Source: Methanobacteriota archaeon
Lineage (GTDB): Archaea; Halobacteriota; Methanosarcinia; Methanosarcinales; Methanosarcinaceae
Direction of reading: 5' to 3'
DNA length: 47,185 nt
Assembly: GCA_016841265.1 (NCBI GenBank)
Contig: JAENZL010000031.1
Span: 1-47,185, forward strand
Both the position numbers and the translations under genes were made by a program. Of this stretch, positions 17,036 to 45,076 are shown one piece after another (position 1 is the first letter of the stretch; each line of letters opens with the position of its first letter). The notes under the pieces are model-generated. The model did no database searches and was not told the origin of the DNA. It saw nothing but the letters and a program-made list of their open reading frames with translations.

Positions 17036-18569
<1,534 letters not shown>

Positions 18570-18582
18570 GGATGGAATTTAA

Positions 18583-18638: not shown

Positions 18639-18771
18639 ATGTAAAAACCGTATCAATTCCCCCGGTCGCAAAATGGAGGTTTAAACATCTCCTCTATTAA
18701 GGCGCTGTTTCAGGAAGCAGGAATTCGGGGGAATTACTTTTTAAGAAAAACGGCAGTAAGAGGGTATTATA

Positions 18772-19590
18772 ATGAAGGCCATGATCCGAAGCAAGAAAAA
18801 TATCGAACCACTGATCTTCGTATTTTCTCTTTTATTGCTTTTGCTTTTTTCTTTTATTTTTGTGACCCTTGCAAACATGATCTTCGGGCAGGTGCTCAAC
18901 GATTTCCCTGGTCTGGTCAGAACTGCAAAAAACAGTTCGGTTATGAGCTCCATTTTTCTCTCTCTTTATGCAGGTTTTCTTGCCACTCTTATAGCCCTCT
19001 TTCTCGGGGCTCCCACAGGCTACATCCTGGCAAGGTTTGATTTTCCGGGAAAGAGGCTGGTTGAGAGTATCATCGATGTGCCGGTTGTGGTCCCTCATAC
19101 GGTTGCAGGAATTGCCCTGCTGACGGTTTTCGGGTCCCGTGGGCTTATAGGTGGTCCGCTCGAACCCTATGTCCAGTTCAGGGATGCTCTTCCGGGCATA
19201 GTAGTTGCCATGCTCTTTGTATCCGTGCCCTATCTTGCCAATTCTGCAAGGGAAGGCTTTAAAAGTGTTAACCCGAGGCTTGAGAATGCTGCTCGTTCCC
19301 TGGGGGCTCCGCTCTGGAAAGCCTTTCTTTTTGTAACCCTTCCGCTTTCCGCAAGGCATCTTCTGGTGGGGGCTGTCATGACCTGGGCCAGGGCTATCAG
19401 CGAGTTTGGGGCTGTTGTGATGATAGCCTACTACCCTATGATCGGGCCCACGCTTATCTATGACAGGTTTCTTTCCTACGGGCTTTCGGCATCAAGACCT
19501 GTCGCAGTCCTTCTGATCCTTATAACCCTTACCATCTTCATAGTAATCAGAATACTTTCCGCAGGCTGGAGCATATATGATAGAGATTAA
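18772..19590 (+). CDS. modB: Molybdate/tungstate ABC transporter permease
   Basis: This is the membrane channel of the importer. The 272-residue protein has about six transmembrane helices, and the cytoplasmic coupling loop that contacts the ATPase (EGFKSVNPRLENAARSLGA, the EAA-type motif, about residues 162-180) is intact. It fits the ModB/WtpB permease family in length and order. The final 14 bases overlap modC, so the two are translationally coupled. The upstream gap to modA holds a tandem repeat. Confidence 0.94.
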   Translation: MKAMIRSKKNIEPLIFVFSLLLLLLFSFIFVTLANMIFGQVLNDFPGLVRTAKNSSVMSSIFLSLYAGFLATLIALFLGAPTGYILARFDFPGKRLVESIIDVPVVVPHTVAGIALLTVFGSRGLIGGPLEPYVQFRDALPGIVVAMLFVSVPYLANSAREGFKSVNPRLENAARSLGAPLWKAFLFVTLPLSARHLLVGAVMTWARAISEFGAVVMIAYYPMIGPTLIYDRFLSYGLSASRPVAVLLILITLTIFIVIRILSAGWSIYDRD

Positions 19591-20623
19591 AGCCCTCTCC
19601 CGAAAATGGAAGTCTTTTGCCCTGGATTCCCTGGACCTGACTATCCGGGATGGGGAGTATTTCGTTATCCTCGGGCCCACAGGTTCCGGAAAAACCCTGC
19701 TCCTTGAACTTTTAGCAGGTTTCCACCGTCCTGATTCGGGAAAAATCCTGATCAACGGAAAGGACGTCACGGACTTATCGCCGGAAAAACGCAACCTGGC
19801 TTTTGTGTACCAGGACTATTCCCTGTTCCCGCATATGACTGTTAAAAAGAACATCGAATTCGGGCTGAAGATGAAAAAGCTTAAAGCTCCCGAAAAGTTC
19901 AGGGAAATTTCGGAATACCTCAATATTTCCCACCTGCTGGAACGGCATCCTCTAAACCTTTCTGGTGGGGAACAGCAGCGTGTATCCCTTGCCAGGGCCC
20001 TTGTGACAGACCCTGAAATTCTCATGCTGGACGAACCTCTGAGTGCCCTTGACCCCAGGACGCAGGACAGTGCCCGGGAGATGCTTTTGAATGTGCACCG
20101 GAAGGGTAAGCTGACCGTGCTCCATATTACCCATGACCAGACCGAAGCCCGGATCATGGCAGATAAAATCGCGGTGGTGATGGACGGGAAGCTCGTACAG
20201 GTGGGTACGCCGGAAGAAGTCTTTGAAAAACCTGCAAACGACATGATCGCTGATTTCGTAGGTTTCGAGAATGTTCTGAAAGGCAGGGTGCTTTCTCGTG
20301 AAAAGGGCCTTCTTCGGATCGATGCCGAAGGAACGGTGCTTGAAGCCGCCGGAGAGGTGGAGGTCGGGGACATGGTACATGTCGGGCTGAGGCCGGAAAA
20401 CATAGTTTTAAGTAAGACCTTCACACAATCCAGCATCAGGAACTCACTGAAAGGTACGGTGATAGAGGTTCAGAGCCTGGGCGCACTTGTGAGGGTGCGG
20501 ATGGATTGCGGTCCCCTCCTGAATGCGCTGGTAACCCGGCAGTCTGCTGAAGAAATGGAGCTAGCTCCTGGGGTGCCTGTTTATGCCCAGTTCAAAGCGT
20601 CTTCTATCCATGTGCTCCGATAA
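19577..20623 (+). CDS. modC: Molybdate/tungstate ABC transporter ATP-binding protein
   Basis: This ATPase powers the importer. The 348-residue protein has Walker A GPTGSGKT (33-40), the Q-loop VYQDYSLFPHM, signature LSGGEQQR, Walker B ILMLDEP, and the switch histidine in HITHDQTEA. After about residue 240 comes a C-terminal domain ending ASSIHVLR that matches the regulatory oxyanion-binding domain of M. acetivorans ModC, where bound molybdate or tungstate locks the transporter. I recognise strong resemblance to that structurally known protein. It overlaps modB by 14 bases and is followed 11 bases later by the regulator gene. Confidence 0.95.
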   Translation: MIEIKALSRKWKSFALDSLDLTIRDGEYFVILGPTGSGKTLLLELLAGFHRPDSGKILINGKDVTDLSPEKRNLAFVYQDYSLFPHMTVKKNIEFGLKMKKLKAPEKFREISEYLNISHLLERHPLNLSGGEQQRVSLARALVTDPEILMLDEPLSALDPRTQDSAREMLLNVHRKGKLTVLHITHDQTEARIMADKIAVVMDGKLVQVGTPEEVFEKPANDMIADFVGFENVLKGRVLSREKGLLRIDAEGTVLEAAGEVEVGDMVHVGLRPENIVLSKTFTQSSIRNSLKGTVIEVQSLGALVRVRMDCGPLLNALVTRQSAEEMELAPGVPVYAQFKASSIHVLR

Positions 20624-20634
20624 GGTGGAAATTT

Positions 20635-21384
20635 TTGAAAGCGAAAACAAAGCTCTGGTTTACGGAAGACGGAAAGCCCGTGATGGGGGCCGGAAAAGCC
20701 AGTTTGCTCAAAGCTATTGACGAGGAAAAGTCCCTCCGGAAAGCCTGCGAAAAACTGAAAATTTCCTATAAACATGCCTGGCTCATGTTGAAAAAAATGA
20801 ACGAACGGCTCGAAGATCCCGCAGTGCTCACAGTGCGTGGGGGGAAAAACCAGGGGACCTTCCTTACGGAAGTGGGTCGAAAAATGTTGGCCGAATATGA
20901 AACCAGTAGGCAGCTTATCAAAGAGGCTGTGGGAGACGAAACCGCCTGGGAAAATGTTGGCTTTAAAATCTCAGCCCGGAACAGGCTCCCGGGAAAGGTC
21001 CTCGAAGTCGAGAAAGGAGGCCTGGTCTCGAAGATCACGATTGTAATGGAACCCTCAATCCTGACCTCCGTTGTCACCGAAGAGGCCGTGGAGCAACTCG
21101 ACATAAAGCCCGGAGACCGGATATACGCGGTCATCAAGTCCACGGAAGTAATGGTTGCAAAGAGACCTGAGCCCGAAGGTCCTGATGAAAATAAACCTGA
21201 AAAAAGTACACCTGAAGAAAATAAACCTGAAGAAAATAAACCTGAAGAAAATAAACCTGAAAAAAGTACACCTGACGAAAATAAACCTGAAAAAAGTACA
21301 CCTGACGAAAATAAACATGAAGATAAGAAATTGAAAGTTAATAAATTGAAAGAAAATAAGCCTGAAAAAAAGTTAAGAAAATAA
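20635..21384 (+). CDS. modE: ModE-type molybdate-responsive regulator with repeat tail
   Basis: Residues 1-100 form a ModE/LysR-type winged helix (SLRKACEKLKISYKHAWLMLKKMNE is the recognition region), and residues about 113-176 form one Mop/TOBE oxyanion-binding domain (SARNRLPGKVLEVEKGG). Such proteins sense molybdate and repress or activate transport and molybdoenzyme genes. Beyond residue 180 is an unusual 70-residue hydrophilic tail made of pentapeptides PEENK, PDENK and PEKST, then a Lys-rich end. The start is TTG at 20635 behind AAGGTGG, 11 bases after modC, so it is co-transcribed with the transporter and probably autoregulates it. Only one Mop domain is present, against two in E. coli ModE. 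Confidence 0.88.
   Translation: MKAKTKLWFTEDGKPVMGAGKASLLKAIDEEKSLRKACEKLKISYKHAWLMLKKMNERLEDPAVLTVRGGKNQGTFLTEVGRKMLAEYETSRQLIKEAVGDETAWENVGFKISARNRLPGKVLEVEKGGLVSKITIVMEPSILTSVVTEEAVEQLDIKPGDRIYAVIKSTEVMVAKRPEPEGPDENKPEKSTPEENKPEENKPEENKPEKSTPDENKPEKSTPDENKHEDKKLKVNKLKENKPEKKLRK
21181..21315 (+). repeat. 15-bp coding tandem repeat in the modE tail
   Basis: Nine successive 15-bp units of the types CCTGAAGAAAATAAA and CCTGAAAAAAGTACA encode nine pentapeptides (PEENK, PDENK or PEKST). The two unit types partly alternate, pointing to past duplication of a 30-bp double unit. Confidence 0.9.
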
Positions 21385-31900: not shown

Positions 31901-31918
31901 TATGTTTAATTAAACATA
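31901..31918. promoter_or_regulatory. fmd-upstream palindrome 1
   Basis: TATGTTTAA is followed directly by TTAAACATA, an exact palindrome; flanking GA and TC extend the symmetry to 22 bases (31899-31920). It lies about 405 bases before the fmdE start. Confidence 0.55.
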
Positions 31919-32081: not shown

Positions 32082-32099
32082 TATGTCGAGATTAACATA
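32082..32099. promoter_or_regulatory. fmd-upstream palindrome 2 (imperfect)
   Basis: TATGTCGAG then ATTAACATA has the same 18-base geometry as the other two sites, with outer arms TATGT and ACATA conserved and mismatches toward the centre. Confidence 0.4.
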
Positions 32100-32199: not shown

Positions 32200-32217
32200 T
32201 ATGTTAGGCTTAACATA
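32200..32217. promoter_or_regulatory. fmd-upstream palindrome 3
   Basis: TATGTTAGG then CTTAACATA forms an 18-base palindrome with a single mismatched pair. It is 107 bases before the fmdE start and runs into the 14-bp direct repeats. Confidence 0.5.
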
Positions 32218-32255: not shown

Positions 32256-32323
32256 CATGCCGGGGTGCCCGCTAAAGAATATCTCGGATTTAAATTCCGG
32301 ATTTAGATCCTGTGAGGCGTCCC

Positions 32324-32893
32324 ATGGAAACGATTATAGAACAAATAAAGGACCCTGAACTGCTTTCCCAGATCGATAAGCTCGTTCCCTTTCATGGCTA
32401 CCTGACTTCCGGGGCTTTCATCGGCCTCCAGATGCTCAATATTGCAAGGAAAGTGCTCGATGTCAGGGACGGGGAGCGCATATACGTGACCTGTGAAACC
32501 CGAAATTGCGTGCCTGACCCTTTCCAGATCCTGGGCGGGGCAACCAGCGGGAACAACGGGCTGAAAATCAAGGACCTGGGGAAAATGGCAGTTACCGTGA
32601 ACAAGCGAGTTCCTGATGGTGAAGATACTGTTAGAGGGGTCCGCATTATGCTCGACCCTGATAAAACAAAAGCGTATCCGACCCTTCACGCCTGGTACCT
32701 GAATACCGCAAAGTTCCCCCATACCGAAGTCCTGCCAGACCTGCTGGCTGCCGGGGAAAAGGTGTACACCTGGAAGTTTGTGGACCTCGAAGTCCCGCTT
32801 AAGGGGAAAAAACGGATACAGCGCTGTGAAAACTGCGGTGAGATGTTCATTCGGTATAATGATGAGCTGCTGTGCGGCGAATGCACAGAATAA
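32324..32893 (+). CDS. fmdE: FmdE family protein with zinc ribbon
   Basis: FmdE-type proteins accompany formylmethanofuran dehydrogenase operons and may help assemble or regulate the enzyme; their exact role is not settled. The 189-residue protein has the domain features PFHGYLTSGAFIGLQM (about 22-37), Cys57 and Cys62 in CETRNC, and GGATSGNNGL, then a C-terminal zinc ribbon with CENC and CGEC (about 166-187). ATG 32324 is chosen with GTGAGG upstream; a GTG at 32312 is possible but would overlap that site. It is first in the fmd operon, as in Methanosarcina. Confidence 0.93.
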   Translation: METIIEQIKDPELLSQIDKLVPFHGYLTSGAFIGLQMLNIARKVLDVRDGERIYVTCETRNCVPDPFQILGGATSGNNGLKIKDLGKMAVTVNKRVPDGEDTVRGVRIMLDPDKTKAYPTLHAWYLNTAKFPHTEVLPDLLAAGEKVYTWKFVDLEVPLKGKKRIQRCENCGEMFIRYNDELLCGECTE

Positions 32894-32912
32894 CGGTTTA
32901 GAGGTAAATAAA

Positions 32913-33950
32913 ATGCAAGATGACAGAAGATTGTCGGTCTTTTCCGAAAAAAAAGACAAGCAACTGGTCTACCTGCCTGAGAAATGCATAGGCTGCGGGA
33001 CCTGTGTGCAGGCCTGCCCGAAAGGGAGCCTTGCAATCGGGGCCGTGGGTGCCGTGGCAAGAGGCCTGTTTGATGCGGATTTTCTTGAACCGAAAGGTGA
33101 AGACTGCCTTGTCTGCGGGATCTGCGCCAGGGTCTGCCCCACAGGTGCCCTGGAACTGAGGCAGGAAGGAAAGTCCCTGAAAGATGCTTCTTACCTTTCA
33201 GGAGCCCTGAAGCCTACTTCCGTGAACGAAAACTGTGTCCACTGCGGGCTTTGTGCGGAAGTCTGTCCCAGGGACTGCATTACGGTTACAAAAGAACTTG
33301 CCGGAGACGGAAGCCTGAAGCTGGTCGGAAAGACCAGCATTGATACGGAAAGCTGCGTGCACTGCGGCTGGTGTGCGGCGGTCTGTCCTGCAGATGCCAT
33401 TTCCGTGGAAAAGCCCTTTGAAGGCCGCTGGGAATGGGACGAGAACGTCTGCCAGACCTGCCACACCTGTGTGGAAGTCTGCCCTGCAAATGCTCTTTTC
33501 AACAAAGAATGGAATGCCGGGGAAAGGGTAGAAAAGCTTACGCACAGGCCTGATGCCTGCATCTACTGCGGGGCCTGTGCCGTGTCCTGTCCAGTGGACG
33601 CCATTGATGTCCGAAAGACCGCTATCCTGCCGGAACTGGAGAAAAAAGGTCCCCTTGAGAAAAAGCTGCTTGAGGCCCCGGTCCCTGAAGCCCTGCTCCG
33701 CACCCGCCTGGAAACCGACGATGCAAGCTGCCTGGGCTGCGGGAACTGCGTGATCGTCTGTCCCGTAAATGCCTTTGGGGACAGGGAACTTGCTGCAGGG
33801 CACCTGAATAACCTGGATGAGAAAGCTATCCTTGAGGTTAAAGACGGAAAGGTAGGAGTCGTGGATCAGGAACTCTGCGGGGGAGACGGCACATGTGCCC
33901 TTATCTGTCCCGTAGATGCGATCAGGCTTGTGAAAAGGGAGGTGGAATGA
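32913..33950 (+). CDS. fmdF: Polyferredoxin subunit of formylmethanofuran dehydrogenase
   Basis: This electron-carrying subunit links ferredoxin to the molybdopterin enzyme. The 345-residue protein contains seven regular CxxCxxCxxxCP motifs (for example CIGCGTCVQACP, CVHCGLCAEVCP and CLGCGNCVIVCP) and an eighth with altered spacing (CGGDGTCALICP), consistent with the eight [4Fe-4S] clusters expected for the family. The start at 32913 follows GAGGTAAATAA; a longer frame back to 32778 runs through fmdE and is not real. fmdA begins just after its stop. Confidence 0.95.
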   Translation: MQDDRRLSVFSEKKDKQLVYLPEKCIGCGTCVQACPKGSLAIGAVGAVARGLFDADFLEPKGEDCLVCGICARVCPTGALELRQEGKSLKDASYLSGALKPTSVNENCVHCGLCAEVCPRDCITVTKELAGDGSLKLVGKTSIDTESCVHCGWCAAVCPADAISVEKPFEGRWEWDENVCQTCHTCVEVCPANALFNKEWNAGERVEKLTHRPDACIYCGACAVSCPVDAIDVRKTAILPELEKKGPLEKKLLEAPVPEALLRTRLETDDASCLGCGNCVIVCPVNAFGDRELAAGHLNNLDEKAILEVKDGKVGVVDQELCGGDGTCALICPVDAIRLVKREVE

Positions 33951-33951
33951 T

Positions 33952-35706
33952 ATGGCAGGAACAATTGCCGTTAAGAACGGGTACGTCTTAGATCCCCTGA
34001 ACGAGATCAACGGGGACGTTATGGACATCTTCATCAGGGACGGAAAAGTCGTAAAGGAACTTTCCGCTGCTGAAATGCAGGACACAAAAGTAATCGATGC
34101 CACAGGCATGACGGTCATGCCGGGCGGGGTTGACTCCCACTCCCACGTAGCAGGGGCAAAAGTCAATGCCGGAAGGCAGATGCGTCCTGAAGACCACTAC
34201 AAATGCAACATTAATAAGACCGGGTTAACTCATTCGGGTTCGGGATACACTGTCCCTTCGGTCTACAAACAGGGCTACGATTACGCAGCAATGGGTTACA
34301 CCACGGTCTTTGAAGCCGCAGTTCCCCCGCTTGAAGCCCGGCATACCCATGAGGAAATGCGTGCCACTCCCCTTCTTGATATGGGCAGCTACCTGGTGCT
34401 CGGGAACAACTGGTTTTTGATGCGCTACTTAAGGGACGGAGAAATCGATAGAGCAGCAGCCTATGTTGCCTGGATGATGAAAACCCACAAGACCTACGGG
34501 ATCAAGTGCGTCAACCCTGCGGGGGTTGAGAACTGGGGCTGGGGTGAAAACGTAAACAACCTGGACCAGGCCAACATCCATTTCGAAATGACTCCCAGGG
34601 AAATGATCAGAGGCCTGACAGAAGTTAACGAAATGCTGGGAATGCCCATGCCCCTGCACCTTCACGCCAACAACCTCGGGCATCCGGGCTGCTATGAGAT
34701 CACAAAAGACTCCCTGAAAATCCCTGACGGGGTAAAGGCTAAACAGAAAATGGACGTGGAATGGGCTGAAACAAAAATGGACCCTTCCCGGGAACGTTCG
34801 GTCTACCTCACCCACCTCATGTTCAACAGTTTTGCAGGCACAAGCTGGGGGGACTGTGAGTCCGGTGTGAAAGACATTGCGGATTACATTAACAATAAGG
34901 ACCATGTGGTTATCGACAGTGGCTGCACTCCTTTCGGGGAAGCCACGGTCATGACCGGAGACGGCCCTGCAATCCACGACCTCTACACCCTCACAGGCAA
35001 CAAATGGTCGAACGCGGACATTGAGCTGGAATGCGGATCAGGGGTTATTCCTTTTACCTACCTTAAGTCCAACCCCGTGCACAGTTTGCAGTGGGCCATG
35101 GGGCTTGAGACTCTTCTCCTTATCAAAGACCCCTGGAAGACCATCATGACCACAGACAGCCCGAACGGTGGGCCGTTTACGAAGTATCCTGTAGTCATGA
35201 CCTGGCTCATGTCCGAGGCTTCCAGGAAACAGACCTTTGGCGAATGCCATAAATGGGCCAACGACAGGAGCGAGCTTGGCGGCGTGGACCGGGAACTTTC
35301 CCTCTACGACATTGCAATCCTGACCAGGGCCAACCCTGCCCGGACCATTGGTATGGCGCACAGGAAGGGGACCCTGGGAATCGGGGCTGACGGGGACGTT
35401 ACGGTTTACAACCTCAACCCGCAGAAGCTTGATTCGAACAACTACGAGGAACTCATCCGGGCCTTTGCACGGGCTGAATACACAATCAAGGCGGGAGAAA
35501 TTGTGGCAAAGAACGGGGAAATCGTATCCGTGCCCGAAAAGCGGACTTACTATTCCGAGGTGCACGTGGAAGACGAAAAGGAAAAGGAGATGCTTGTTGA
35601 CGTGAAGGAGTGGTTCAGGTACTACACCCTTGGTTTTGCCAACTACCCGACTCCTGAAAAGTACCTTGAAAACCCGACCCCGATACAGATAAACAAAGAG
35701 AGGTGA
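33952..35706 (+). CDS. fmdA: Formylmethanofuran dehydrogenase subunit A
   Basis: FmdA is the amidohydrolase-like subunit that, in the structurally known W enzyme, condenses formate with methanofuran at a binuclear metal site after CO2 has been reduced in FmdB. The 584-residue protein shows the metal-binding VDSHSHVAG (His63, His65) and further motifs such as HLHANNLGHPG and TTDSPNGGPF. The length fits the family. It begins with ATG 33952, one base after the fmdF stop codon, behind GGGAGGTGG. In Methanosarcina growing on methylated compounds the reaction runs toward CO2. Confidence 0.96.
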   Translation: MAGTIAVKNGYVLDPLNEINGDVMDIFIRDGKVVKELSAAEMQDTKVIDATGMTVMPGGVDSHSHVAGAKVNAGRQMRPEDHYKCNINKTGLTHSGSGYTVPSVYKQGYDYAAMGYTTVFEAAVPPLEARHTHEEMRATPLLDMGSYLVLGNNWFLMRYLRDGEIDRAAAYVAWMMKTHKTYGIKCVNPAGVENWGWGENVNNLDQANIHFEMTPREMIRGLTEVNEMLGMPMPLHLHANNLGHPGCYEITKDSLKIPDGVKAKQKMDVEWAETKMDPSRERSVYLTHLMFNSFAGTSWGDCESGVKDIADYINNKDHVVIDSGCTPFGEATVMTGDGPAIHDLYTLTGNKWSNADIELECGSGVIPFTYLKSNPVHSLQWAMGLETLLLIKDPWKTIMTTDSPNGGPFTKYPVVMTWLMSEASRKQTFGECHKWANDRSELGGVDRELSLYDIAILTRANPARTIGMAHRKGTLGIGADGDVTVYNLNPQKLDSNNYEELIRAFARAEYTIKAGEIVAKNGEIVSVPEKRTYYSEVHVEDEKEKEMLVDVKEWFRYYTLGFANYPTPEKYLENPTPIQINKER

Positions 35707-35710
35707 GGCA

Positions 35711-36532
35711 ATGGCAGAAGTAGTGCTTATACCGAAAAAGGAAATTGACATCAAACTTGAGGCAGAGGCCATCACCCCTGACGCGTTTGCCGGCAAGAGC
35801 GCCGAAGAAATCGGAAAACTGGAAATCTGGCAGGGGCCAAAGACCTATCCCCTTGCCGAGTTTTTCGATGTGGAAAGAAATGAAGAGGATTTTGCCGGGG
35901 AAACTGCTGAAGATACCCTGATCCGCATAAAAGGGGACATGCTCCGGGTCAAAAAGATCGGAGAAGGCATGACCGCAGGCAGGATCGAGATTGAAGGTTC
36001 TGCAGGCATGCATGTAGGTACCGGGATGAAAGGAGGCGAAATCCTGGTCTCGGGAGATGTGGATTCCTGGGCAGGTATGGAAATGGAAGGCGGGCTTTTG
36101 CATATCAAAGGCAACGTCGGTGACCACGTTGGCTGCGCTTACCGGGGTTCCTGGCATGGGATGAAAGGCGGGCGCATCGTGATAGAAGGCTCTGCCAGGC
36201 ACCAGCTCGGCGGCGGCATGGACGGCGGGGAAATTTTCGTGGAAGGAAATGTGGAAGGCTTCTGCGGGATTCGCCAGACCGGCGGGCTTATTGCTGTCCG
36301 CGGCGGAGCCCTTCGCACTGTTGGGGTTGAAATGAGTGGGGGAACCCTGCTCATCGGAGGCCGGATCGAGCGCTTTTCTCCGGGCTTCGAATACGTCGGG
36401 TCAGAAACAGGCCCCGCTTTCGGAGACTTTGAGTTTGCAGGAGAGTTCAAGAAATTTGCAGGGGACTTTGCGATCAGCAAGCGGGCAAAAGGCGTGCTCT
36501 ACGTGGCTGCGGACGCAAACCCGGGGCTCTGA
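35711..36532 (+). CDS. fmdC: Formylmethanofuran dehydrogenase subunit C
   Basis: FmdC is a right-handed beta-helix-type subunit related to the C-terminal domain of glutamate synthase. The 273-residue protein has recurring Gly-rich turns (GMKGGEILVSGDV, GMEMEGGLLHIKGNVGDHVG, GGGMDGGEIFVEGNV), the diagnostic repeat. It scaffolds the complex and sits between fmdA and fmdD, starting 4 bases after fmdA. No departure from the family is seen. Confidence 0.95.
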   Translation: MAEVVLIPKKEIDIKLEAEAITPDAFAGKSAEEIGKLEIWQGPKTYPLAEFFDVERNEEDFAGETAEDTLIRIKGDMLRVKKIGEGMTAGRIEIEGSAGMHVGTGMKGGEILVSGDVDSWAGMEMEGGLLHIKGNVGDHVGCAYRGSWHGMKGGRIVIEGSARHQLGGGMDGGEIFVEGNVEGFCGIRQTGGLIAVRGGALRTVGVEMSGGTLLIGGRIERFSPGFEYVGSETGPAFGDFEFAGEFKKFAGDFAISKRAKGVLYVAADANPGL

Positions 36533-36542
36533 GGTGAGAGGA

Positions 36543-36932
36543 ATGGAAGTATTACTCATTACCGGAAGTACGATTGAGGAAGGCAAGCTTGCCAAGGGTG
36601 GAGACAAGCTGACCGCCGAATACCAGGCGGAATGTGCGGTCTGCTGGATTTCCCCTGAAGATTTTGAAGTGCTCGGTTCTCCCGAAAAGGTGAAAGTGAC
36701 CAGCCGGAACGGCAAACATACGGTTGCAGTCAACACGAAATGCACGGATGCGGTCCGGGAAGGGCATGTGTTTATGCCAAGGGCGATCTGGTCAAACGTT
36801 GTTATTGACCCCGATACTCTTTCCACGGGCTCTCCCCTGTACAAGGGCGCTCCTGTAAACATCGAGCCTACGGAGGACGAGGTCCTGAGCGCCGAAGACG
36901 TTGTTTTGAAAGTTTATGTCGGAGGGCTGTGA
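36543..36932 (+). CDS. fmdD: Formylmethanofuran dehydrogenase subunit D
   Basis: FmdD is homologous to the C-terminal domain of molybdopterin oxidoreductases such as formate dehydrogenase and helps bind the bis-molybdopterin cofactor together with FmdB. The 129-residue protein begins MEVLLITGSTIEEG and contains NTKCTDAVREGHVFMPRAIWSN. The start at 36543 follows GAGGTGAGAGG; an upstream extension of the frame lies inside fmdC and is rejected. Its stop is followed within a few bases by fmdB. Confidence 0.95.
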   Translation: MEVLLITGSTIEEGKLAKGGDKLTAEYQAECAVCWISPEDFEVLGSPEKVKVTSRNGKHTVAVNTKCTDAVREGHVFMPRAIWSNVVIDPDTLSTGSPLYKGAPVNIEPTEDEVLSAEDVVLKVYVGGL

Positions 36933-36934
36933 AT

Positions 36935-38242
36935 ATGGTTTCCAAAAACATAGTATGTCCTGTCTGCGGAGCAGCCTGTGATGATATCCAGGTCGAACTC
37001 GGGGACGGATCAATTGAAGTAAAGAACGCATGCAGGATGGGAAGTGCCAAGTTCAGGGAAGTTGTAAGTTCCCACCGGCTCAGAGAGCCCCTCATAAAGG
37101 TGGAAGGAGACAGCAAGCCCCAACCCGCAGCCTGGGACGCTGCCCTTGAAAAGGCTGCTGATATCCTGGTTTCCGCAAAGCGCCCCCTGCTCTTCATGGG
37201 GAGCGAGACCTCCTGTGAAGCCCACGAAGTAGGGCTCCATATCGGGGAATACCTGGGGGCAGTTGTCGATTCCAATGCTACGATCTGCCACGGCCCGACA
37301 GCCATGGGAATCCAGGAAGCTGGAAAAGTCGGCGCCACGGAAGGGCAGAAGAAAAACAGGGCTGACCTTGTGGTATACTGGGGGACCAACCCGCTTGAGT
37401 CCATGCCGCGGCAGATGTCCAGGTACGGGGTTTTCCCGCGGGGCTACTGGACAAAGCGCGGGCGCTTTGACCGGACTGTCATCACCATTGACCCGAGAAA
37501 GACTCCCACCGCAGAAGCTTCCGACCTGCACATCCAGCTCAAACCCAATTCCGATTACGAACTGGCAAGCGCCCTTCTGACACTCCTGCACGGAAAAGAG
37601 CCCCATCCTTCGGTAGAAGAAATTACCGGGGTCTCCATCTCCACCATGAAAGAAATGCTCGAGATGATGAAGAACTGCAAGTTCGGGGCTATTTCCGTAG
37701 GCCTTGGCCTGTCCTCCTCCATAGGCAAGCACAGGAACGCCGAGATTGCCATGAACCTGGTCAAGGAGCTGAACAATTACTCAAAGTTCACTTTGGGCGC
37801 TCTCCGGGGTCACTGCAACGTCGCAGGCTTCAACCAGATAGCTTCCTACCTCTACGGCTACCCCTTCGGGCTTGACTTCATGAGGGGCCACCCCCGCTAC
37901 AACCCCGGAGAATTCACAACCGTAGACCTCCTCAGGGAAAAAGACGTGGACGCAGCCCTGGTTATGTGTGCCGACCTTGTCTGCCACATCCCCGCCGACT
38001 GTGCCTCCTACCTTGCCGAAATCCCCCTGGTCTGCCTGGACATCGCTCCCTGCCCGACCACGGTAGCATCCGACGTAGTACTCCCCGGAGTCATCGACGC
38101 CATGGAATGCGACGGGACCTTCTACAGGCTCGACGACGTTGCCGTGCACTTCGAACCCTTCACAACTTCCCCCTTCGAGTTCACGCAGAGCAACGAAGAC
38201 ACCCTGAAGCAGCTCTTTGCCAAGATCAAGGAAAGGGTTTAA
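36935..38242 (+). CDS. fmdB: Formylmethanofuran dehydrogenase subunit B (molybdopterin catalytic)
   Basis: FmdB holds the metal-pterin cofactor and a [4Fe-4S] cluster and reduces CO2 to formate (or the reverse). The 435-residue protein has cluster cysteines Cys8, Cys11, Cys15 and Cys33 and the metal ligand Cys118 in TICHGPTAMG, which matches the position known for the tungsten isoenzyme, so it is a cysteine and not selenocysteine form. Operon order EFACDB points to the molybdenum isoenzyme. ATG 36935 is chosen; a GTG at 36929 overlaps fmdD. It ends the operon, before a hairpin terminator. Confidence 0.96.
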   Translation: MVSKNIVCPVCGAACDDIQVELGDGSIEVKNACRMGSAKFREVVSSHRLREPLIKVEGDSKPQPAAWDAALEKAADILVSAKRPLLFMGSETSCEAHEVGLHIGEYLGAVVDSNATICHGPTAMGIQEAGKVGATEGQKKNRADLVVYWGTNPLESMPRQMSRYGVFPRGYWTKRGRFDRTVITIDPRKTPTAEASDLHIQLKPNSDYELASALLTLLHGKEPHPSVEEITGVSISTMKEMLEMMKNCKFGAISVGLGLSSSIGKHRNAEIAMNLVKELNNYSKFTLGALRGHCNVAGFNQIASYLYGYPFGLDFMRGHPRYNPGEFTTVDLLREKDVDAALVMCADLVCHIPADCASYLAEIPLVCLDIAPCPTTVASDVVLPGVIDAMECDGTFYRLDDVAVHFEPFTTSPFEFTQSNEDTLKQLFAKIKERV

Positions 38243-38350: not shown

Positions 38351-38700
38351 TTTTCAGTTTCCAGAGGTTTGATTTTCTAGTTTTTAGTTTTCTTTCGATT
38401 TGCTTTTCTGTTTTTTTCAGTTTCCAGCGCCATTATACAATTTTCTAGTTTTTCAATTTCCTGTGCCGCTATGTAATCTTTCTGGCTTTTCACTTCCCAG
38501 TGAAGCAGTTGTCTTTATAGAGATCGAACCCCGGGAACTCACCGGTTGCGCAAGCAACCGGCCTTTCCTGAAACTATATTATGAAACTACACATAATCGT
38601 CGAAGTTTTAACATAGTAATAATCTTTGAATGTACTTTTATACAACCTGCCATTAAATACAATCGCTAATAATTATAACTGTAAAGTATTTACTAAGGTT
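38351..38700. other. Intergenic region with degenerate repeats and a GC-rich hairpin
   Basis: No gene is seen. From 38351 to about 38505 a degenerate unit of roughly 45-65 bases (TTTTCAGTTTCCAG followed by TTTTCTAGTTTTT) recurs about three times. A GC-rich hairpin at 38542-38561 follows. The remainder is AT-rich and should hold the promoter of the next gene. Confidence 0.5.
38542..38561. other. Perfect 8-bp hairpin with GNRA-type loop
   Basis: CCGGTTGC and GCAACCGG pair perfectly around the loop GCAA, a GNRA tetraloop if transcribed on the plus strand. It stands alone without an adjoining T run. A similar CCGGT/ACCGG-ended hairpin lies at 39825-39845 on the other side of the surface-protein gene. 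Confidence 0.6.
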
Positions 38701-38708
38701 TGATCCAA

Positions 38709-39713
38709 ATGTTCAAAAGAAGCAATATTGGCAAATGGCTGCTGCTTATGATATTTGTCTTAATTTTATCATCTGGTTCTGCAGGTGCCGATGATGATGA
38801 ATTGAACGATTCCGAATATAATGAAATCTCCGATTCTATAACGGAATTTGCAAATGATCCCTCGTTCATAGCCTACAGGGGAACCGTGCCGGAAACAATT
38901 GATCGGGAATGGAAAAATTCAATTTCAGATTGCTGGCTAAATCTTAACCGTATAGGGCCGTCATATTCCGAATTTGACAGCTCCATAACAAACATTGCTG
39001 TCAGTCATGTACTAATAATTGAATTGGGTTCTGAATATCAAGGAGAAGTAGATGACTCCAAAATTGACGAGATCTATCAGAAAATTGAGGATTACTGCGA
39101 AGAGCAGGAAGGAATAAGCGAAATCCCTGTTGTCTTTTTGTGGGATCAGGATGAGGGGGACCCATTACCGGACTACGGGCAAGAGATGTTTGAAAAGGCC
39201 GAGAGCAGTTCCGGATTCGTAGCTGCTCGAGGAACAATGCCTGTAATTATAGATGCCAGTGAAAAAAGGGAGTGGACAGATTCACTTGTTCAGTGTAGTC
39301 GGACACTTTGTAATCCTTCTCATCCTGATGCAGGAATTGGCGCGCATTTTGTTGAATTCGATGGCCCTGTGAGCAGTTTTGGGACCTCAATTAATGGATA
39401 TTTAGAAGTAGGTTTTCAGGGATACAGTTCAGAAAAAGTAAATGAATCTCTAATTGATGAAATATATCAAATAATCGAGGACAATTGTGAACTGAAAGGA
39501 ATAAGTGAAGTGCCAGTCGTTTTTATGTGGGGAGAAGAGGTAATTGAGGAAGAAGAGGTTGAGGCGCCGGCACTGGATGAAGTTGATAATGCTGATTTGT
39601 CAGATGAGAAAGAAGAAGCTGCGGATGATGAAACAACCAATCAAACACCTGGCTTTACTTCAATAATGGTCATTTTAGGGCTTTTGCTTCTGGTGAAGAT
39701 AAAGCGGAAGTAA
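38709..39713 (+). CDS. Secreted PGF-CTERM protein with a duplicated domain
   Basis: This 334-residue surface protein of unknown function has a signal peptide (about 9-27), two homologous extracellular domains of about 110-130 residues, an acidic linker, and a C-terminal PGFTSIMVILGLLLLVKIKRK arrangement of Pro-Gly-Phe, hydrophobic helix and basic end. That is the sorting signal cut by archaeosortase, which attaches the protein to the envelope. The domain duplication shows in FIAYRGTVPETID / FVAARGTMPVIID and ISEIPVVFLW / ISEVPVVFMW, each with nearby cysteines. ATG 38709 is preferred over TTG 38700. The gene is more AT-rich than its neighbours. Confidence 0.75.
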   Translation: MFKRSNIGKWLLLMIFVLILSSGSAGADDDELNDSEYNEISDSITEFANDPSFIAYRGTVPETIDREWKNSISDCWLNLNRIGPSYSEFDSSITNIAVSHVLIIELGSEYQGEVDDSKIDEIYQKIEDYCEEQEGISEIPVVFLWDQDEGDPLPDYGQEMFEKAESSSGFVAARGTMPVIIDASEKREWTDSLVQCSRTLCNPSHPDAGIGAHFVEFDGPVSSFGTSINGYLEVGFQGYSSEKVNESLIDEIYQIIEDNCELKGISEVPVVFMWGEEVIEEEEVEAPALDEVDNADLSDEKEEAADDETTNQTPGFTSIMVILGLLLLVKIKRK

Positions 39714-39753: not shown

Positions 39754-39788
39754 ATAGCCTATGTTCGAACATACGGCTATTTTTTATT
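39754..39788 (+). terminator. Terminator after the surface-protein gene
   Basis: ATAGCC and GGCTAT pair around an inner palindrome TATGTTCGAACATA, and a T-rich run follows, 38 bases after the stop codon. The inner 14-mer nearly equals a motif upstream of the second modA. Confidence 0.75.
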
Positions 39789-39924: not shown

Positions 39925-40749
39925 TCATTTTTTCCTGAAAGCCACTTTTTCGCCACAGCACCGGTGTAACTTCTTTGTTCCCCCTGCCTCGCTAAGCACG
40001 GTAAGCATATTCTTCGAATCGGTAATTTTTGTCCCCATTACTGCCGTAACCCCGCGTTCAAAGAAAGGCTTCGGGTACAGGGGTGCACTTGGGCCAAGCA
40101 GTATAACTTCTCTTGCCTCCCCGGAGGCTGCAAATTTCAGGAGCTCGTCCAGTGTGCCGTTGGCAAGGGTGCTGGCGCTGAGGATGATTACGTCAGAGGC
40201 GGGTAGGACTTCATCTGCCTTTTCCGAGGGTAGGGTTTTTACTTTCGGGGATTCGATTTCCCGCTTTTCAAGGACTGTCAGGCTCCCGGCTTTTTTCGAA
40301 ATACTCGGGACCATGGGGGCGAAGTATCCCACCATTGCAACCCTGTCTTCGGGGTTGATGAGGTCAAGGACGTCAAGTTCCGTGTCAGGTCCCGAAGCCG
40401 GGAAGCTTTCTGGTTTTTGGTCCAGGAGCATGTGGGAAAGGGCGTTTGCGGCTGCAATTCCTACGGCTGCTTCAAGGTGGTTTTTCGAGAGAGCCAGTTC
40501 AAGCAGGGTGCCTGCGGAGCTTCCTTTCAGCCTGCCTGCAAAACCCATGGCAGGGCAGCCGGAAAAATCAAAAATTGGGGTGCATGCCACTCCTCCGTAG
40601 CCGTCCGAGAGCATGACTCCGGTGTAGGCAAGGCCTATGCGGACGTCTTCGGCTTTTATTTCTTCAAGGGCAGGCCCGAAGTTTTGCCTGAGTTCGTTTA
40701 CGAGGGCGGGTACGGCTCCGGTTTCATAGTTTTTTTCGTTGCCTGTCAT
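39925..40749 (-). CDS. DUF364/DUF4213 family protein (putative metal-chelation)
   Basis: This 274-residue soluble protein has a small N-terminal enolase-N-like part (LSDGYGGVACTPIFDF) and a Rossmann-like C-terminal domain (RVAMVGYFAPMVP, DVIILSASTLANGTLDELL, LLGPSAPLYP), the arrangement of the DUF4213 + DUF364 family, proposed to handle heavy-metal chelates. It ends with a His-Arg-Cys-Cys motif (LHRCCGEKVAFRKK) that could bind metal. It is last in an operon with modA, modB, modC and modD, so a role in molybdenum handling is likely by context. Its start follows AAGGTGACC, 29 bases after modD. Confidence 0.82.
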   Translation of the reverse strand: MTGNEKNYETGAVPALVNELRQNFGPALEEIKAEDVRIGLAYTGVMLSDGYGGVACTPIFDFSGCPAMGFAGRLKGSSAGTLLELALSKNHLEAAVGIAAANALSHMLLDQKPESFPASGPDTELDVLDLINPEDRVAMVGYFAPMVPSISKKAGSLTVLEKREIESPKVKTLPSEKADEVLPASDVIILSASTLANGTLDELLKFAASGEAREVILLGPSAPLYPKPFFERGVTAVMGTKITDSKNMLTVLSEAGGTKKLHRCCGEKVAFRKK

Positions 40750-40778
40750 GAGGTCACCTTCATCTTTTTCCTTTTACT

Positions 40779-41576
40779 TTAATTTCCTGTTCTTTCTATT
40801 TTCGTCGTAAAGTCAAGGGGCTGTGCATAATACGGGGCACTCGAAACTATGATGTCCACGAAAGGCGCGTATTCGGGAATCTTTTCTGCCTTTATGCCTC
40901 CCACGGCGAGTTCGAGCTTCGGGTTGAGTATCTTGAGTTCGGGTCCCAGTTTCCGGAGTTCTTCAGGGGAAAGGTGGTCCAGAAGCATGATGTCGGACAT
41001 TTCGGCGAATTTGAAGGCTTCTTCCCGGGACCTGGGCTCGATTTCTATCTTCTTCAGGGCGCGGAGTTTTTCCAGTTCTCCTGCCACTTCCAGGTGGTTC
41101 TGGCTGAGCTGGATGGAATCGCTCAGGGAGTTCCTGTGGATGTCCCCTCCTCCTGCCCTTATGGCTTTTGTCTCGAACCTGCGGGTTCCGGGGTGGGTTT
41201 TCCTGCTTGCTGCGATTATTACATCCGGGTTTTCTTTTCTGGCTGCGTTTACAAAAGTTGAGGATTTGCTGGCTATGGCACACATGACGGTGAGGAAGGT
41301 CTGGGAAACCCTCCAGAATTTGAAAAGGGTCCTGAGCTCTCCTTCGGCTTCGAATATGCTGTCCTGGGGCTCGAATTTTTTCCCGTCCCTGATGTATTTA
41401 AGGACTTTCAGGCCTTTTTTTTCGTAGTATTCGGCCAGGTCTTCAGCACAGGCGCAAACCCCGGCTTCCCGGGTAAAAATCTTGAGTGTTCCTTTTCCTT
41501 CAAGCTTTAGCAGTTCTGCGCTTTCATCCTGATAGGGGCAGTCCTCAAAAAAGTACAGTTCAAAAAGATCGATCAT
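40779..41576 (-). CDS. modD: ModD, NadC-like putative molybdenum utilisation protein
   Basis: ModD is homologous to nicotinate-nucleotide pyrophosphorylase (NadC) but found with molybdate transport genes; its reaction is not known. The 265-residue protein has a NadC-like barrel with SRKTHPGTRRFETKAIRAGGGDIHRNSLSD and LSQNHL, corresponding to the phosphoribosyl/quinolinate site of NadC, and the VGGIKAEKIPEYAPFVDIIVSSA strand near the end. A Cys pair (CACAED region, about residue 41) is extra to what I expect. The start follows AAGGAGCC. It lies between modC and the DUF364 gene, transcribed with them. Confidence 0.85.
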   Translation of the reverse strand: MIDLFELYFFEDCPYQDESAELLKLEGKGTLKIFTREAGVCACAEDLAEYYEKKGLKVLKYIRDGKKFEPQDSIFEAEGELRTLFKFWRVSQTFLTVMCAIASKSSTFVNAARKENPDVIIAASRKTHPGTRRFETKAIRAGGGDIHRNSLSDSIQLSQNHLEVAGELEKLRALKKIEIEPRSREEAFKFAEMSDIMLLDHLSPEELRKLGPELKILNPKLELAVGGIKAEKIPEYAPFVDIIVSSAPYYAQPLDFTTKIERTGN

Positions 41577-41641
41577 GGTCTGGCTCCTTGCTCCTTTGTT
41601 CTTGGCATTTTATTTTTGCTTCTTAATTCCGGTTAGCTTAC

Positions 41642-42838
41642 TCAGCGTATTATTCTGGCATTTGCAGCTTTGAATACGGCATAAATTTCCTTTCCGATCC
41701 CGAGGTCCAGTAATTCACATGATGTTGGAGTTACCACGGCTTTTAACTCTGAAATTCCTGATTCGGAATTCCCCTGCCCCGAATTTCCTGCCGCAGAATT
41801 TCCGATTTCCATTTCGACCAGGACAAGGTGTTCCTTTTTGGAAATTCCAGTAACTATGCCCTTTACCGTGTTGCGGGCAGAACTTTCCACGGCTCCCCTG
41901 GCAAGGATTATTTCTTCCGGACGGATGGAAATACTTACTTCCTCTCCGGGTTCGGCGGAGTCGGCGGAATAGATCTCAAAGCTCTGGCTCTGGTCCCGGT
42001 TCTTTTTCTGGTCCCGGTTCTGGTTTTGATTTTGTTTCTGGATTTTATTCGGGATTTGATTCTGGCCCGGGCCCCGAATTTCAAGCACTGTGAGTTTTCC
42101 TTCGAGAGCCCTGACCTTTCCCTTCAGCACGTTGGTGCCCAGGAAATCCGCTACAAAATCAGGAGACGGGCGCCTGAATACGGATTCTGGATCTCCTTCC
42201 TGCATCACTTCTCCATTTCTTATGATAACCACCCTGTTTGCAAGGCTCCAGATATCGTCAAAATCGTGGGTCACGTGGAGCACGGTGGTCCGGTATTCCC
42301 GGATGGCTTTTTTCAGGGCTTCCCTCATCTTTTCCCTGTTCCTTATGTCAAGGGCGCTGAAGGGCTCGTCCAGGAGGAGGAGTTTTGGCCGGACAACCAG
42401 GCTCCTTGCAAGGGCTGCTCTTTGCTTTTCCCCTCCGCTGAGGGTGGTGGGTTTCCTGTGGAGAAGGCCGTCAATTCCTAGGATTCCGGCTATCTGCCGG
42501 ACTTCGCTTTCTATCTGTTTTTTGTCCCTGAGCTTTTTCCGGAGAGCGTATGCGATATTTTCAAAAACGTCCATGTGGGGGAAAAGCATGTGGTCCTGGT
42601 AGACGATGCTGATCTGCCTTTTGTCGGGAGGAAGCGCCGTAATATCCCTGCCTTCCAGGAATATACTGCCTTTTTTGGGTGCATAAAACCCGATTACGGT
42701 TTCTAGGAGGAGGGATTTCCCGCTGCCCGAAGGGCCTGTAAGCGCTACATAATCTCCTTTTTCAGCCTCCAGGTTCACACCGGTCAGTTCGAAACCCCCC
42801 ACGTCAAGGTGAAGGCTGTTTACTTCCAGGAAGTTCAC
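41642..42838 (-). CDS. modC: Second molybdate/tungstate ABC transporter ATP-binding protein
   Basis: This ATPase powers a second oxyanion importer. The 398-residue protein has Walker A GPSGSGKS (35-42), Q-loop VYQDHMLFPHM, signature LSGGEKQR, Walker B LLLLDEP and switch histidine HVTHDFDDI. The C-terminal TOBE region is interrupted by an Asn/Gln/Lys-rich low-complexity insert (NQIPNKIQKQNQNQNRDQKK, near residues 257-276) and by a second Gly/Asn/Ser insert (GNSAAGNSGQGNSESG). These make it about 50 residues longer than its paralogue at 19.6 kb. It overlaps modB by 4 bases (ATGA). Confidence 0.92.
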   Translation of the reverse strand: MNFLEVNSLHLDVGGFELTGVNLEAEKGDYVALTGPSGSGKSLLLETVIGFYAPKKGSIFLEGRDITALPPDKRQISIVYQDHMLFPHMDVFENIAYALRKKLRDKKQIESEVRQIAGILGIDGLLHRKPTTLSGGEKQRAALARSLVVRPKLLLLDEPFSALDIRNREKMREALKKAIREYRTTVLHVTHDFDDIWSLANRVVIIRNGEVMQEGDPESVFRRPSPDFVADFLGTNVLKGKVRALEGKLTVLEIRGPGQNQIPNKIQKQNQNQNRDQKKNRDQSQSFEIYSADSAEPGEEVSISIRPEEIILARGAVESSARNTVKGIVTGISKKEHLVLVEMEIGNSAAGNSGQGNSESGISELKAVVTPTSCELLDLGIGKEIYAVFKAANARIIR

Positions 42839-43728
42839 AGGCTGCCTCCTTCGAAACGCTCAAAAGTCAGGATTGCCAGGAAAGCGATCAACATCAACAG
42901 GACTCCGCTTGTGATTGCCATTTCAAGGTTCCCGTAGGAGATGTTCAGGTAAAGGGTCACAGGCAGGACTTCGGTGTGCATGTATGAGCCTCCTGCAAGG
43001 ATAAGTACGGCTCCGAAAGCTCCTATGCAGCGGGCAAAGGTGATCACCGCCGAGGCAAAAAGCCCGCTCCGGGCCATCGGGAGGGTTACGTTCCTGAAGG
43101 TTTCGAATTCCCCGTATCCGAAACTCCTGGAAACCTGTTCGTACCTGGGGTTTATGTCCTCGAATGTGGAGTAGATAACCCGGACTGCATAGGGAAAAGC
43201 TATGAAAAACTGGGCGACCACTATCCCGAGTTTGCTGAAGGGAACCTTTATTCCAAGGGTCTCGAGGAACGGTCCCAGAAAGCCCTGTCCGAAGAGGAGG
43301 AGAAGAGCAAGCCCAAGCACGAGTTCCGGAAATGCCATGGGAAGCCCGAGTATTGTTTTTACAAGGCTTTTTCCCGGGAAGGAAAAACGGGATAGGGCAT
43401 AGGCTGTCGGGATGGAACAGCCCATAACCGTTAATGTAGAAAGCGAGGCGGTGAGCACCGAAAGTTCCATGGAATAAAGCATCTCTTCCGACATTAGGGC
43501 CGAGAGGAGTTCGGAAGGCTTCAGGACGAGAAGCAGGGTTCCCACGGCCAGGAAAAGCAAAAAGGTGAAGAAAAAGGAGATGCCGATGGTGGCATTCCTG
43601 AACCAGGAATTCCTTACGCAGGTTTTTCTTATGCAGGAATTACTTATGCAGGAATCCCTTACGCAATTCTTTTCGTGGTTTTTTCCTGTGCAGCTTTCTT
43701 TTGTCCAAATTTTTCTTACGGACTGCAT
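42835..43728 (-). CDS. modB: Second molybdate/tungstate ABC transporter permease, Cys-rich N-terminus
   Basis: This is the membrane channel of the second importer. The 297-residue protein has about six membrane helices from residue 47 on and the coupling loop STFEDINPRYEQVSRSFGYGE. Before the first helix stands an unusual 45-residue cytoplasmic extension built from five pentapeptides (NCVRD, SCISN, SCIRK, TCVRN, SWFRN), with cysteines at 13, 22, 27, 32 and 37. The same segment in DNA (43594-43668) is a degenerate 15-bp repeat. The gene overlaps modA by 13 bases and modC by 4, so all three are translationally coupled. Confidence 0.92.
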   Translation of the reverse strand: MQSVRKIWTKESCTGKNHEKNCVRDSCISNSCIRKTCVRNSWFRNATIGISFFFTFLLFLAVGTLLLVLKPSELLSALMSEEMLYSMELSVLTASLSTLTVMGCSIPTAYALSRFSFPGKSLVKTILGLPMAFPELVLGLALLLLFGQGFLGPFLETLGIKVPFSKLGIVVAQFFIAFPYAVRVIYSTFEDINPRYEQVSRSFGYGEFETFRNVTLPMARSGLFASAVITFARCIGAFGAVLILAGGSYMHTEVLPVTLYLNISYGNLEMAITSGVLLMLIAFLAILTFERFEGGSL

Positions 43729-44549
43729 GGCTCAAAGCCCCATTTTTCCCAGGTCCCTTCAGCTTTTTCACCTGCTATATAATTGTTAAAAGCTTCTGCA
43801 AGGTCAGGTTCATTCGTATAAACGGATACCGCCGTGGGGATGGTCTTTATAGCATTCTGTTCTTCGGGGATCGGGACCAGTTCCAGTTTCCCGTTTGCTT
43901 CTCCCCAGCTTCCCATATCCTCCCAGATTATGGTCGCGTCGACTTCCCCGGTCACGACATAGATCAAGAGCTGGTTTACCGTTGTGGTCCGGACAATCGT
44001 GTTATTCTCCACTTCCGGGAGAATACCTTCCTGTGAACATATCTTCTCCGAAACCTTCCCGATGGCTGGCCCGCTCGGATCTCCCAGAGCCAGTTCCACT
44101 CCCGGATTTGCAAAGTCTTCAAGTTTCCCTATGTTTCCGGGGTTCCCGTAAGGAACCGCAATCACAGGGACGTGCAGGGTTACGTTCCGGACGCTTTCAT
44201 TCAGGACATAATGCTTGCCCATAGCCTGTTCAGTGTAGTAGTAAGCCCCCGGGATAAAAACGTCGCATTCCTGTGCGGCCAGGATCCCGAAGATTTCGGC
44301 ACTTCCACCGTACCGGACCTGGATGTCGGCTCCGGTTTCGTTTTCAAAGTTCCTGACCAGTTCGTTCATGGGTTTGATAAGTCCGGCCCCTGAGCAGACA
44401 GTGAGGCTTTTTCCTTCAAACGGCATGTCCGGATTTTCCGTAATAGCACCTTCTGCTGATGTATCTGCTGAATTCTTCTCGCTACAGCCGGATACCAATG
44501 CTGCAAGGACCAGAACCAGAATTAAAACAAATGTACAAACTTTTTTCAT
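43716..44549 (-). CDS. modA: Second molybdate/tungstate binding lipoprotein
   Basis: This is the extracellular binding protein of the second importer. The 277-residue lipoprotein has a signal ending in VSGC (Cys22), a short Ser/Asn/Asp/Glu-rich linker, then a ModA-type fold beginning LTVCSGAGLIKPMNELVRNFENETGADI, with VRYGGSAEIFGILAAQECDVFIPG and the late TTTVNQLLIYVVTGEVDATIIWED. It differs clearly from the WtpA-like protein at 17.5 kb, so it is a distinct ModA subtype and not a recent duplicate. It opens a five-gene operon. Confidence 0.92.
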   Translation of the reverse strand: MKKVCTFVLILVLVLAALVSGCSEKNSADTSAEGAITENPDMPFEGKSLTVCSGAGLIKPMNELVRNFENETGADIQVRYGGSAEIFGILAAQECDVFIPGAYYYTEQAMGKHYVLNESVRNVTLHVPVIAVPYGNPGNIGKLEDFANPGVELALGDPSGPAIGKVSEKICSQEGILPEVENNTIVRTTTVNQLLIYVVTGEVDATIIWEDMGSWGEANGKLELVPIPEEQNAIKTIPTAVSVYTNEPDLAEAFNNYIAGEKAEGTWEKWGFEPCSP

Positions 44550-44622: not shown

Positions 44623-44636
44623 TATGTTCAAACATA
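44623..44636. promoter_or_regulatory. Palindrome upstream of the second modA
   Basis: TATGTTCAAACATA pairs TATGTT with AACATA around a 2-base centre, 73 bases from the modA start. Its outer arms match those of the 18-base palindromes upstream of fmd, although spacing is 4 bases shorter. Confidence 0.45.
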
Positions 44637-44964
44637 CATAACGGTTAATAAAGTTTTTTATTAAAATATGAGATTCTAAAATCTTTCTTTCAATTTTTAT
44701 AAAAATTTGCAGCGACGCTATTTTTTATGGGAAATGTCAAAATAACTCCTGTCAGCTGCAGCAGTCATAACAAAATTGAGATTTTTGAAAATTGTGATTT
44801 TAAAAGTATTTCGAAAAAAAAGAGCTTGCTTTCAAAACCGTTTTCCTGAAAAAAACGGTTTCAAGAGGGTGAAGTAGTTTGCCGGGTGCAGGGCATCAGC
44901 TCCCCCCTCTTTAAAACCCCTTTGAGTCCCTTCCTGCTTATTTTTGATAAGGTCGATGACATAA

Positions 44965-45034
44965 GTTTGACTGCATCAGTTTGATTGCATCAGTTTGACT
45001 GCATCAGTTTGACTGCATCAGTTTGACTGCATCA
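44965..45034. repeat. 14-bp tandem repeat (5 copies)
   Basis: GTTTGACTGCATCA is repeated five times head to tail; the second copy has one change (GATTGC for GACTGC). It lies just beyond the 3' end of the minus-strand oxidoreductase gene. Confidence 0.95.
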
Positions 45035-45076
45035 GAGTTCAATACTTCAGAATCGGATCTTTCGGATCCCGGTTTT

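Follow-up and report, generated by a model that had tools for sequence, protein, structure and literature searches.

The window analysed in this study, a stretch of 47,185 nucleotides (contig C28 of the 3.65 Mb Methanosarcinaceae genome G000), carries an operon in which genes of a molybdate-type ABC transporter (modABC) are followed by genes for ModD, a paralogue of the quinolinate phosphoribosyltransferase NadC, and for a DUF4213/DUF364 protein (hereafter DUF364). The ModD and DUF364 genes were found to form a conserved pair in the Methanosarcinaceae, to co-occur with the molybdenum-type formylmethanofuran dehydrogenase (Fmd), and to share an operator with the fmd genes; the linkage is not due to chance and recurs over genera and phyla. 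Because the importer operon shares a control site with the enzyme that starts the conversion of CO2 to methane, it is suggested that ModD and DUF364 handle molybdenum after its entry into the cell, and we give roughly even weight to a post-uptake molybdenum step serving Fmd. The basis observed for this comprises the gene linkage, the co-occurrence, the common operator and residue losses in ModD. The five genes of the operon are as follows.

43716..44549, minus strand: modA-like solute-binding lipoprotein (Pfam SBP_bac_11, 182 bits)
42835..43728, minus strand: permease, TIGR01581 'Mo_ABC_porter' (BPD_transp_1, 58 bits; TIGR01581, 290 vs 210)
41642..42838, minus strand: ABC ATPase with TOBE domain, modC/wtpC-like (ABC_tran, 117 bits; TOBE, 37 bits)
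40779..41576, minus strand: ModD, NadC paralogue of the type-II phosphoribosyltransferase fold without Lys172 (QRPTase_C, 96 bits; QRPTase_N, 51 bits)
39925..40749, minus strand: DUF4213/DUF364 protein with the fold of 3l5o/3npg (DUF364, 141.3 bits; DUF4213, 73.3 bits)

Linkage and co-occurrence with the molybdenum-type Fmd

ModD and DUF364 are adjacent in all 42 Methanosarcinaceae genomes that have both on one contig, and lie on separate contigs in four further genomes, including G089, which is not badly fragmented. A modB orthologue was located within 2.6 kb of ModD in 20/20 genomes, and in 34 of the 38 genomes with DUF364 and fmdB on one contig the two are no more than 15 kb apart, so the conserved linkage on which the initial annotation had staked its proposal was indeed found. 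The pair is separated from modABC in g2, Methanohalophilus and one Methanococcoides, where it adjoins fmdACDB together with an FdhD sulfurtransferase (PF02634) gene; loci L070 and L075 show this arrangement. Outside the Methanosarcinaceae, modABC-ModD operons were detected in Archaeoglobaceae, Thermococcus and Aciduliprofundum assemblies, all without DUF364, and two of these loci also bear Wtp genes. Distant DUF364s from other families adjoin Mod/Wtp-type transporters or fmd genes (e.g. L155, L163, L165, L183 and L184).

The ModD survey covered 186 genomes of the order, in which complete ModD orthologues, at about 55% identity or higher, stood well apart from NadC (about 33%), and ModD orthologues were observed only in Methanosarcinaceae genera with the molybdenum-type FmdB. 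Among 112 Methanosarcinaceae genomes, FmdB was present in 85/87 genomes with ModD and in 3/25 without it, these being counts over related genomes and not independent events; the two ModD genomes lacking FmdB are 60% and 70% complete. The FmdB of the window falls in the class of at least 700 bits. ModD, FmdB and DUF364 are all missing from G081, and ModD and FmdB from G159, which retains DUF364, though the congeners of both have them. The tie with nifD, found in 45/87 genomes with ModD and 2/25 without, is weaker than that with FmdB, and DUF364 showed no association with nifD across the Methanosarcinaceae genomes (p=1.0). Nitrogenase is therefore a weak candidate for the client enzyme, since nifD is missing from Methanococcoides and Methanohalophilus, both of which carry ModD and often also DUF364.

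Several other arrangements were noted at these loci. At L186 and L187, a distant DUF364 stands in an operon with NMT1-type ABC transporter and nitrogenase-component-1-like genes. Three Methanosarcina genomes with an intact mod-operon copy of DUF364 also have decayed C-terminal fragments of it, no further than about 2 kb downstream of fmdB (G157 C1:273039-273233, G156 C1:3840212-3840442 and G148 C1:370379-370573), as remnants of a second DUF364 copy at fmd. In one archaeon of the Archaeoglobaceae (G247), a single case, a CitG-family (triphosphoribosyl transferase) gene lies directly 3' of modABC-ModD (L127:6850-7728). On the Nostoc plasmids L121 and L146, a bacterial-type ModD is found between nifH and small molybdopterin-binding protein genes.

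A putative operator shared by mod, fmd and fwd

A putative operator, ModE-box-like and of the pattern TATGT-N8-ACATA, was observed before both modA and fmdE. The sites and genes in the window are given below.

44623..44640: TATGTTCAAACATACATA, ModE-box-like operator before modA, centred about 83 bp from the start of the gene
31901..31918: TATGTTTAATTAAACATA, operator before fmdE
32082..32099: TATGTCGAGATTAACATA, operator before fmdE
32200..32217: TATGTTAGGCTTAACATA, operator before fmdE
32312..38242, plus strand: fmd operon (E, F, A, C, D, B), molybdenum-type Fmd, with FmdA and FmdB far above cut-offs
20635..21384, plus strand: ModE-like regulator (helix-turn-helix plus Mop/TOBE), candidate reader of the operator

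Seven exact sites occur in the 3.65 Mb genome, against three for the reversed control pattern. Three of the seven lie before fmdE, one before modA, one about 570 bp before fwdD-fwdB-fwdA and two elsewhere, so that four are inside the window, an outcome with a chance probability of roughly 9e-7; the cross-genome test weighs more than this figure, because the pattern was picked after it had been sighted in the window. At least two exact sites were present within 460 bp of fmdE in 13/13 fetched relatives (the window genus and Methanosarcina), recurring near -57, -140 and -300 to -390. The modA operons of 18/18 genomes have, 37-88 bp upstream, a site that departs from the pattern by one base at most, and in 13 of them it is exact. 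Where the pair occurs without modABC, a site was found 86-512 bp upstream of ModD (of DUF364 in G159) in most of the examined Methanosarcina, Methanococcoides and Methanohalophilus, and none was found at the fetched fmd operons of Methanococcoides, Methanohalophilus, Methanolobus and Methanomethylovorans. Since the operator is common to fmd and fwd, the molybdenum link of the pair is strengthened. The motif TATGTTCNAACATA, an early guess, was dropped in favour of TATGT-N8-ACATA because the inner bases vary; a copy of it at 39760-39773 resembles part of a terminator hairpin. A search of the window with Rfam for a riboswitch, such as that for the molybdenum cofactor (Moco), yielded a tRNA only.

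ModE control of modABC in the Methanosarcinales has been stated (PMC9765008). The phyletic pattern of ModE is non-discriminating and was set aside as proof of the regulator. The sharing of one operator by mod, fmd and fwd is apparently new, though the 2003 work of Studholme and Pau on archaeal ModE elements may partly anticipate it.

Predicted roles of ModD and DUF364

In the quinolinic acid phosphoribosyltransferase (QAPRTase) of Mycobacterium tuberculosis, whose numbering is used here, the C3 carboxylate is held by Arg139/Arg162 and the C2 carboxylate by Arg105'/Lys172, and the Lys172Ala variant has no detectable activity (PMC4065032). A comparison of 31 ModD and 16 NadC sequences revealed that Lys172 is absent from every ModD, with Thr/Ser (23 archaeal) or Phe (8 bacterial-type) in its place, and present in every NadC. 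Glu104 is replaced by Trp and Gly270 by Ser/Thr in 31/31 ModD, archaeal and bacterial alike in the case of Glu104, and Asn223 by His or Lys, while Arg139, Lys140, His161, Arg162, His175 and Glu201 are invariant and position 105 is Arg or Lys. The ModD of the window accordingly fails at the quinolinate site (Arg105, Arg139, Arg162, Lys172, His175), with Lys172 changed to Ser/Thr and the other four residues kept. In a tree of 47 sequences, for which the tree tool warned of long branches, archaeal and bacterial ModD group together and are split from NadC with a branch support of 100/99. Since the anchor of the C2 carboxylate is lost, ModD is predicted to be a phosphoribosyltransferase for an acceptor other than quinolinate, presumably a monocarboxylate. 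That ModD is instead another quinolinate phosphoribosyltransferase, working in NAD synthesis, is most improbable. The two enzymes do have the same fold: the AlphaFold model of ModD (mean predicted local distance difference test, pLDDT, 89) matches QAPRTases with template modelling (TM) scores of up to 0.87 (0.85 to 2b7n), and Arg139, Lys140, His161, Arg162 and Glu201 are retained. The tree, the residues and the genome's own separate NadC gene (C11:14559-15350) nevertheless rule it out as far as sequence can.

Both DUF364 and DUF4213 domains of the window protein (PF04016 and PF13938) exceed the gathering score. Its model (pLDDT 91) matches 3l5o with an E-value of 4e-20, and in the fold search full-length matches were solely 3l5o and 3npg (TMt 0.80-0.85); the matches to HcgC and eIF2B were partial (TM about 0.3), and neither was taken as a functional relative. 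A conserved C-terminal Cys was observed in the Methanosarcinaceae members. In 2010 DUF364 was tied to Fe, W, V and Mo transport genes in the Dhaf4260 paper, citing MTH924, MTH926 and Mbar_A1307, and Miller et al. proposed a flavin/pterin-type chelating ligand for it, as given in passages of that paper (PMC2954201). Those passages contain no mention of ModD, formylmethanofuran dehydrogenase or the operator. The link of DUF364 to molybdenum transport was therefore already known, and its constant pairing with ModD is added here.

Taking these observations together, a ModE-type regulator might read TATGT-N8-ACATA and jointly set modABC, the ModD-DUF364 pair, fmd and, through one site, fwd, so that the operon would be one arm of a small group-6-metal (molybdenum/tungsten) regulon. 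ModABC would import molybdate, and ModD and DUF364 would act inside the cell between molybdate and the mature molybdenum-type Fmd. ModD may transfer phosphoribosyl from phosphoribosyl pyrophosphate (PRPP) to an aromatic acceptor other than quinolinate, one carboxylate of which would be gripped by Arg139/Arg162, and DUF364 may use the cleft between its Rossmann-like domain and enolase-like cap to convert or load the ModD nucleotide into a molybdenum-binding compound. This phosphoribosyl-ligand chemistry is put forward tentatively, with far less assurance than the step itself, and the fuller proposal that the two proteins make an N-ribosylated organic ligand, under the operator of the client enzyme, on which molybdenum would travel from the importer to the cofactor machinery of Fmd is more speculative still. 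The initial annotation had likewise suggested a step after uptake, which gains from the conserved pair, the transporter and fmd linkage and the shared operator; the organic carrier, storage or delivery that it named we can only infer, and the same holds for which regulator acts, what the reaction is, what binds the metal and whether it is delivered to Fmd.

A number of observations weigh against a post-uptake step that serves Fmd. Thermococcus and Archaeoglobaceae have modABC-ModD but no DUF364, which argues that the core partner of ModD is the transporter and not Fmd. Methanolobus and Methanomethylovorans carry ModD without DUF364 and without fmd linkage, and the operator was, with one exception, not found before ModD in the Methanolobus and Methanomethylovorans examined. 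In other families of the order FmdB is found where ModD is absent, and among the three Methanosarcinaceae genomes with FmdB but no ModD the closed Methanosarcina genome G177, which has fmd and DUF364, is a true exception, so Fmd does not strictly require the pair. The co-occurrence counts carry no correction for relatedness. In Methanococcoides and Methanohalophilus the operator falls in the intergenic region that ModD shares with a DUF34/NIF3 gene in divergent orientation (L075:5343-6083 and L074:5842-6582), and could serve either. ModE homologues are present in nearly all genera, including those without the operator, so ModE is a candidate reader only.

Other explanations of the same loci were weighed. 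The pair might act on the cofactor side, on the pyranopterin or the nucleotide tail, with Moco maturation for Fmd in series with FdhD and no separate molybdenum ligand; its position beside fmdACDB and FdhD in g2, Methanohalophilus and one Methanococcoides fits this, as does the ligand suggested by Miller et al., but in Thermococcus and Archaeoglobaceae ModD accompanies the transporter instead of cofactor genes, and many Fmd/Fwd carriers lack the pair. This explanation is unlikely. A little less probable is a role in metal selectivity or homeostasis, by which the pair would buffer, sense or tell molybdenum from tungsten for Fmd versus Fwd. The operator does stand before molybdenum-type fmd and tungsten-type fwd alike, and the organism has WtpABC besides the mod-operon transporter, but the models of ModD and DUF364 point to enzyme folds, not sensor folds. 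Co-location by descent under a common molybdenum-regulated promoter, with no joint metabolic step, is more doubtful again: although two genera have ModD but lack DUF364, and G159 and G177 show the reverse, the pair remains adjacent once split from modABC, at varied positions near fmd and accompanied by the operator, and the joint absence of ModD and FmdB from G081 (where DUF364 is missing too) and G159, unlike their congeners, also speaks against it.

Gene neighbourhood and comparison with known systems

The order modA-modB-modC-ModD-DUF364 constitutes a single compact minus-strand operon of five open reading frames (44549-39925), in agreement with the initial annotation; modA and modB overlap by 13 bp and modB and modC by 4 bp, with gaps of 65 bp between modC and ModD and 29 bp between ModD and DUF364. 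The gene names given there hold at the level of Pfam families but not of equivalogs, since modA (53 vs 62.5 bits), modC (212 vs 285 bits) and the permease, which clears TIGR01581 instead, all miss their NCBIfam cut-offs, and ModD stays below that of TIGR01334 (132.1 vs 178.85 bits), which is exceeded in only 3/393 genomes of the phylum. The nearest solved chains to modA are molybdate-binding proteins, at a weak match (8zj6, E 8e-7), and molybdate rather than tungstate may be the substrate, to judge indirectly by the fmd linkage and the ModE-like operator. A 15-bp tandem repeat of 4.1 copies (43604-43665) lies within the 5' part of modB, whose product starts with about 30 additional residues, orthologues mostly aligning only from residue 31-37 onward; this extension is probably made of the repeat, with the true start internal.

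The operon is next to the molybdenum-type fmd operon and is a second transporter, as had been claimed: fmdB ends at 38242, WtpABC is also present in the window, and the genome has a further modABC set that adjoins nif genes. The other transporter of the window is listed below.

17439-20623: WtpABC, directly 5' of the ModE-like gene (together 17439-21384)

Between fmd and DUF364, positions 38700-39713 encode a secreted-looking protein of 337 residues with no Pfam family and a C-terminal PGF-like hydrophobic tail, and an open reading frame of the same size is located at this position in G080 and G082. A 14-bp tandem array of 5.4 copies (CATCAGTTTGACTG) occurs at 44960-45035, between the mod operon and a flavodoxin-like gene.

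The findings bear on the unsettled question of how molybdate inside the cell reaches the CO2-fixing enzyme of methanogens, and on two widespread families, ModD and DUF364, to which no reaction has been assigned. The families themselves and the DUF364-transporter link were known beforehand; an archaeal ModD clade without Lys172, the fixed ModD-DUF364 pair and its co-occurrence with the molybdenum-type Fmd are apparently new. With the fixed pairing, the co-occurrence and the common operator, the question becomes testable in Methanosarcina, which has genetics, and the loss of Lys172 makes a concrete biochemical prediction, namely a monocarboxylate acceptor in place of quinolinate.

Compared with known systems, the operator shares with the E. 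coli-type ModE box (consensus ATCGNTATATA-N6-TATATANCGAT, quoted in PMC545781) two 5-bp half sites 8 bp apart, and the outer CG is partly retained at the modA site; it differs by one base per half site, with TATGT/ACATA for TATAT/ATATA, and the outer CG is mostly missing at fmd. The DUF364 of the window has in common with the 3l5o/3npg family the two-domain fold and, from the passages of PMC2954201, the metal-transport association, and differs in its constant ModD pairing, C-terminal Cys and fmd proximity. ModD shares with NadC the fold, the PRPP-side residues and the C3-carboxylate clamp, and is set apart by the change of Glu104 to Trp, the loss of Lys172 and the change of Gly270 to Ser/Thr. 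In arrangement the operon resembles the modABCD operon of Rhodobacter/Cereibacter (ModD of TIGR01334), where ModD is also encoded with modABC and belongs to the same clade by tree and residues. However, the archaeal ModD falls below the TIGR01334 cut-off and has Thr/Ser rather than Phe at 172 and His rather than Lys at 223, and the archaeal operon carries the extra DUF364 gene and the link to fmd.

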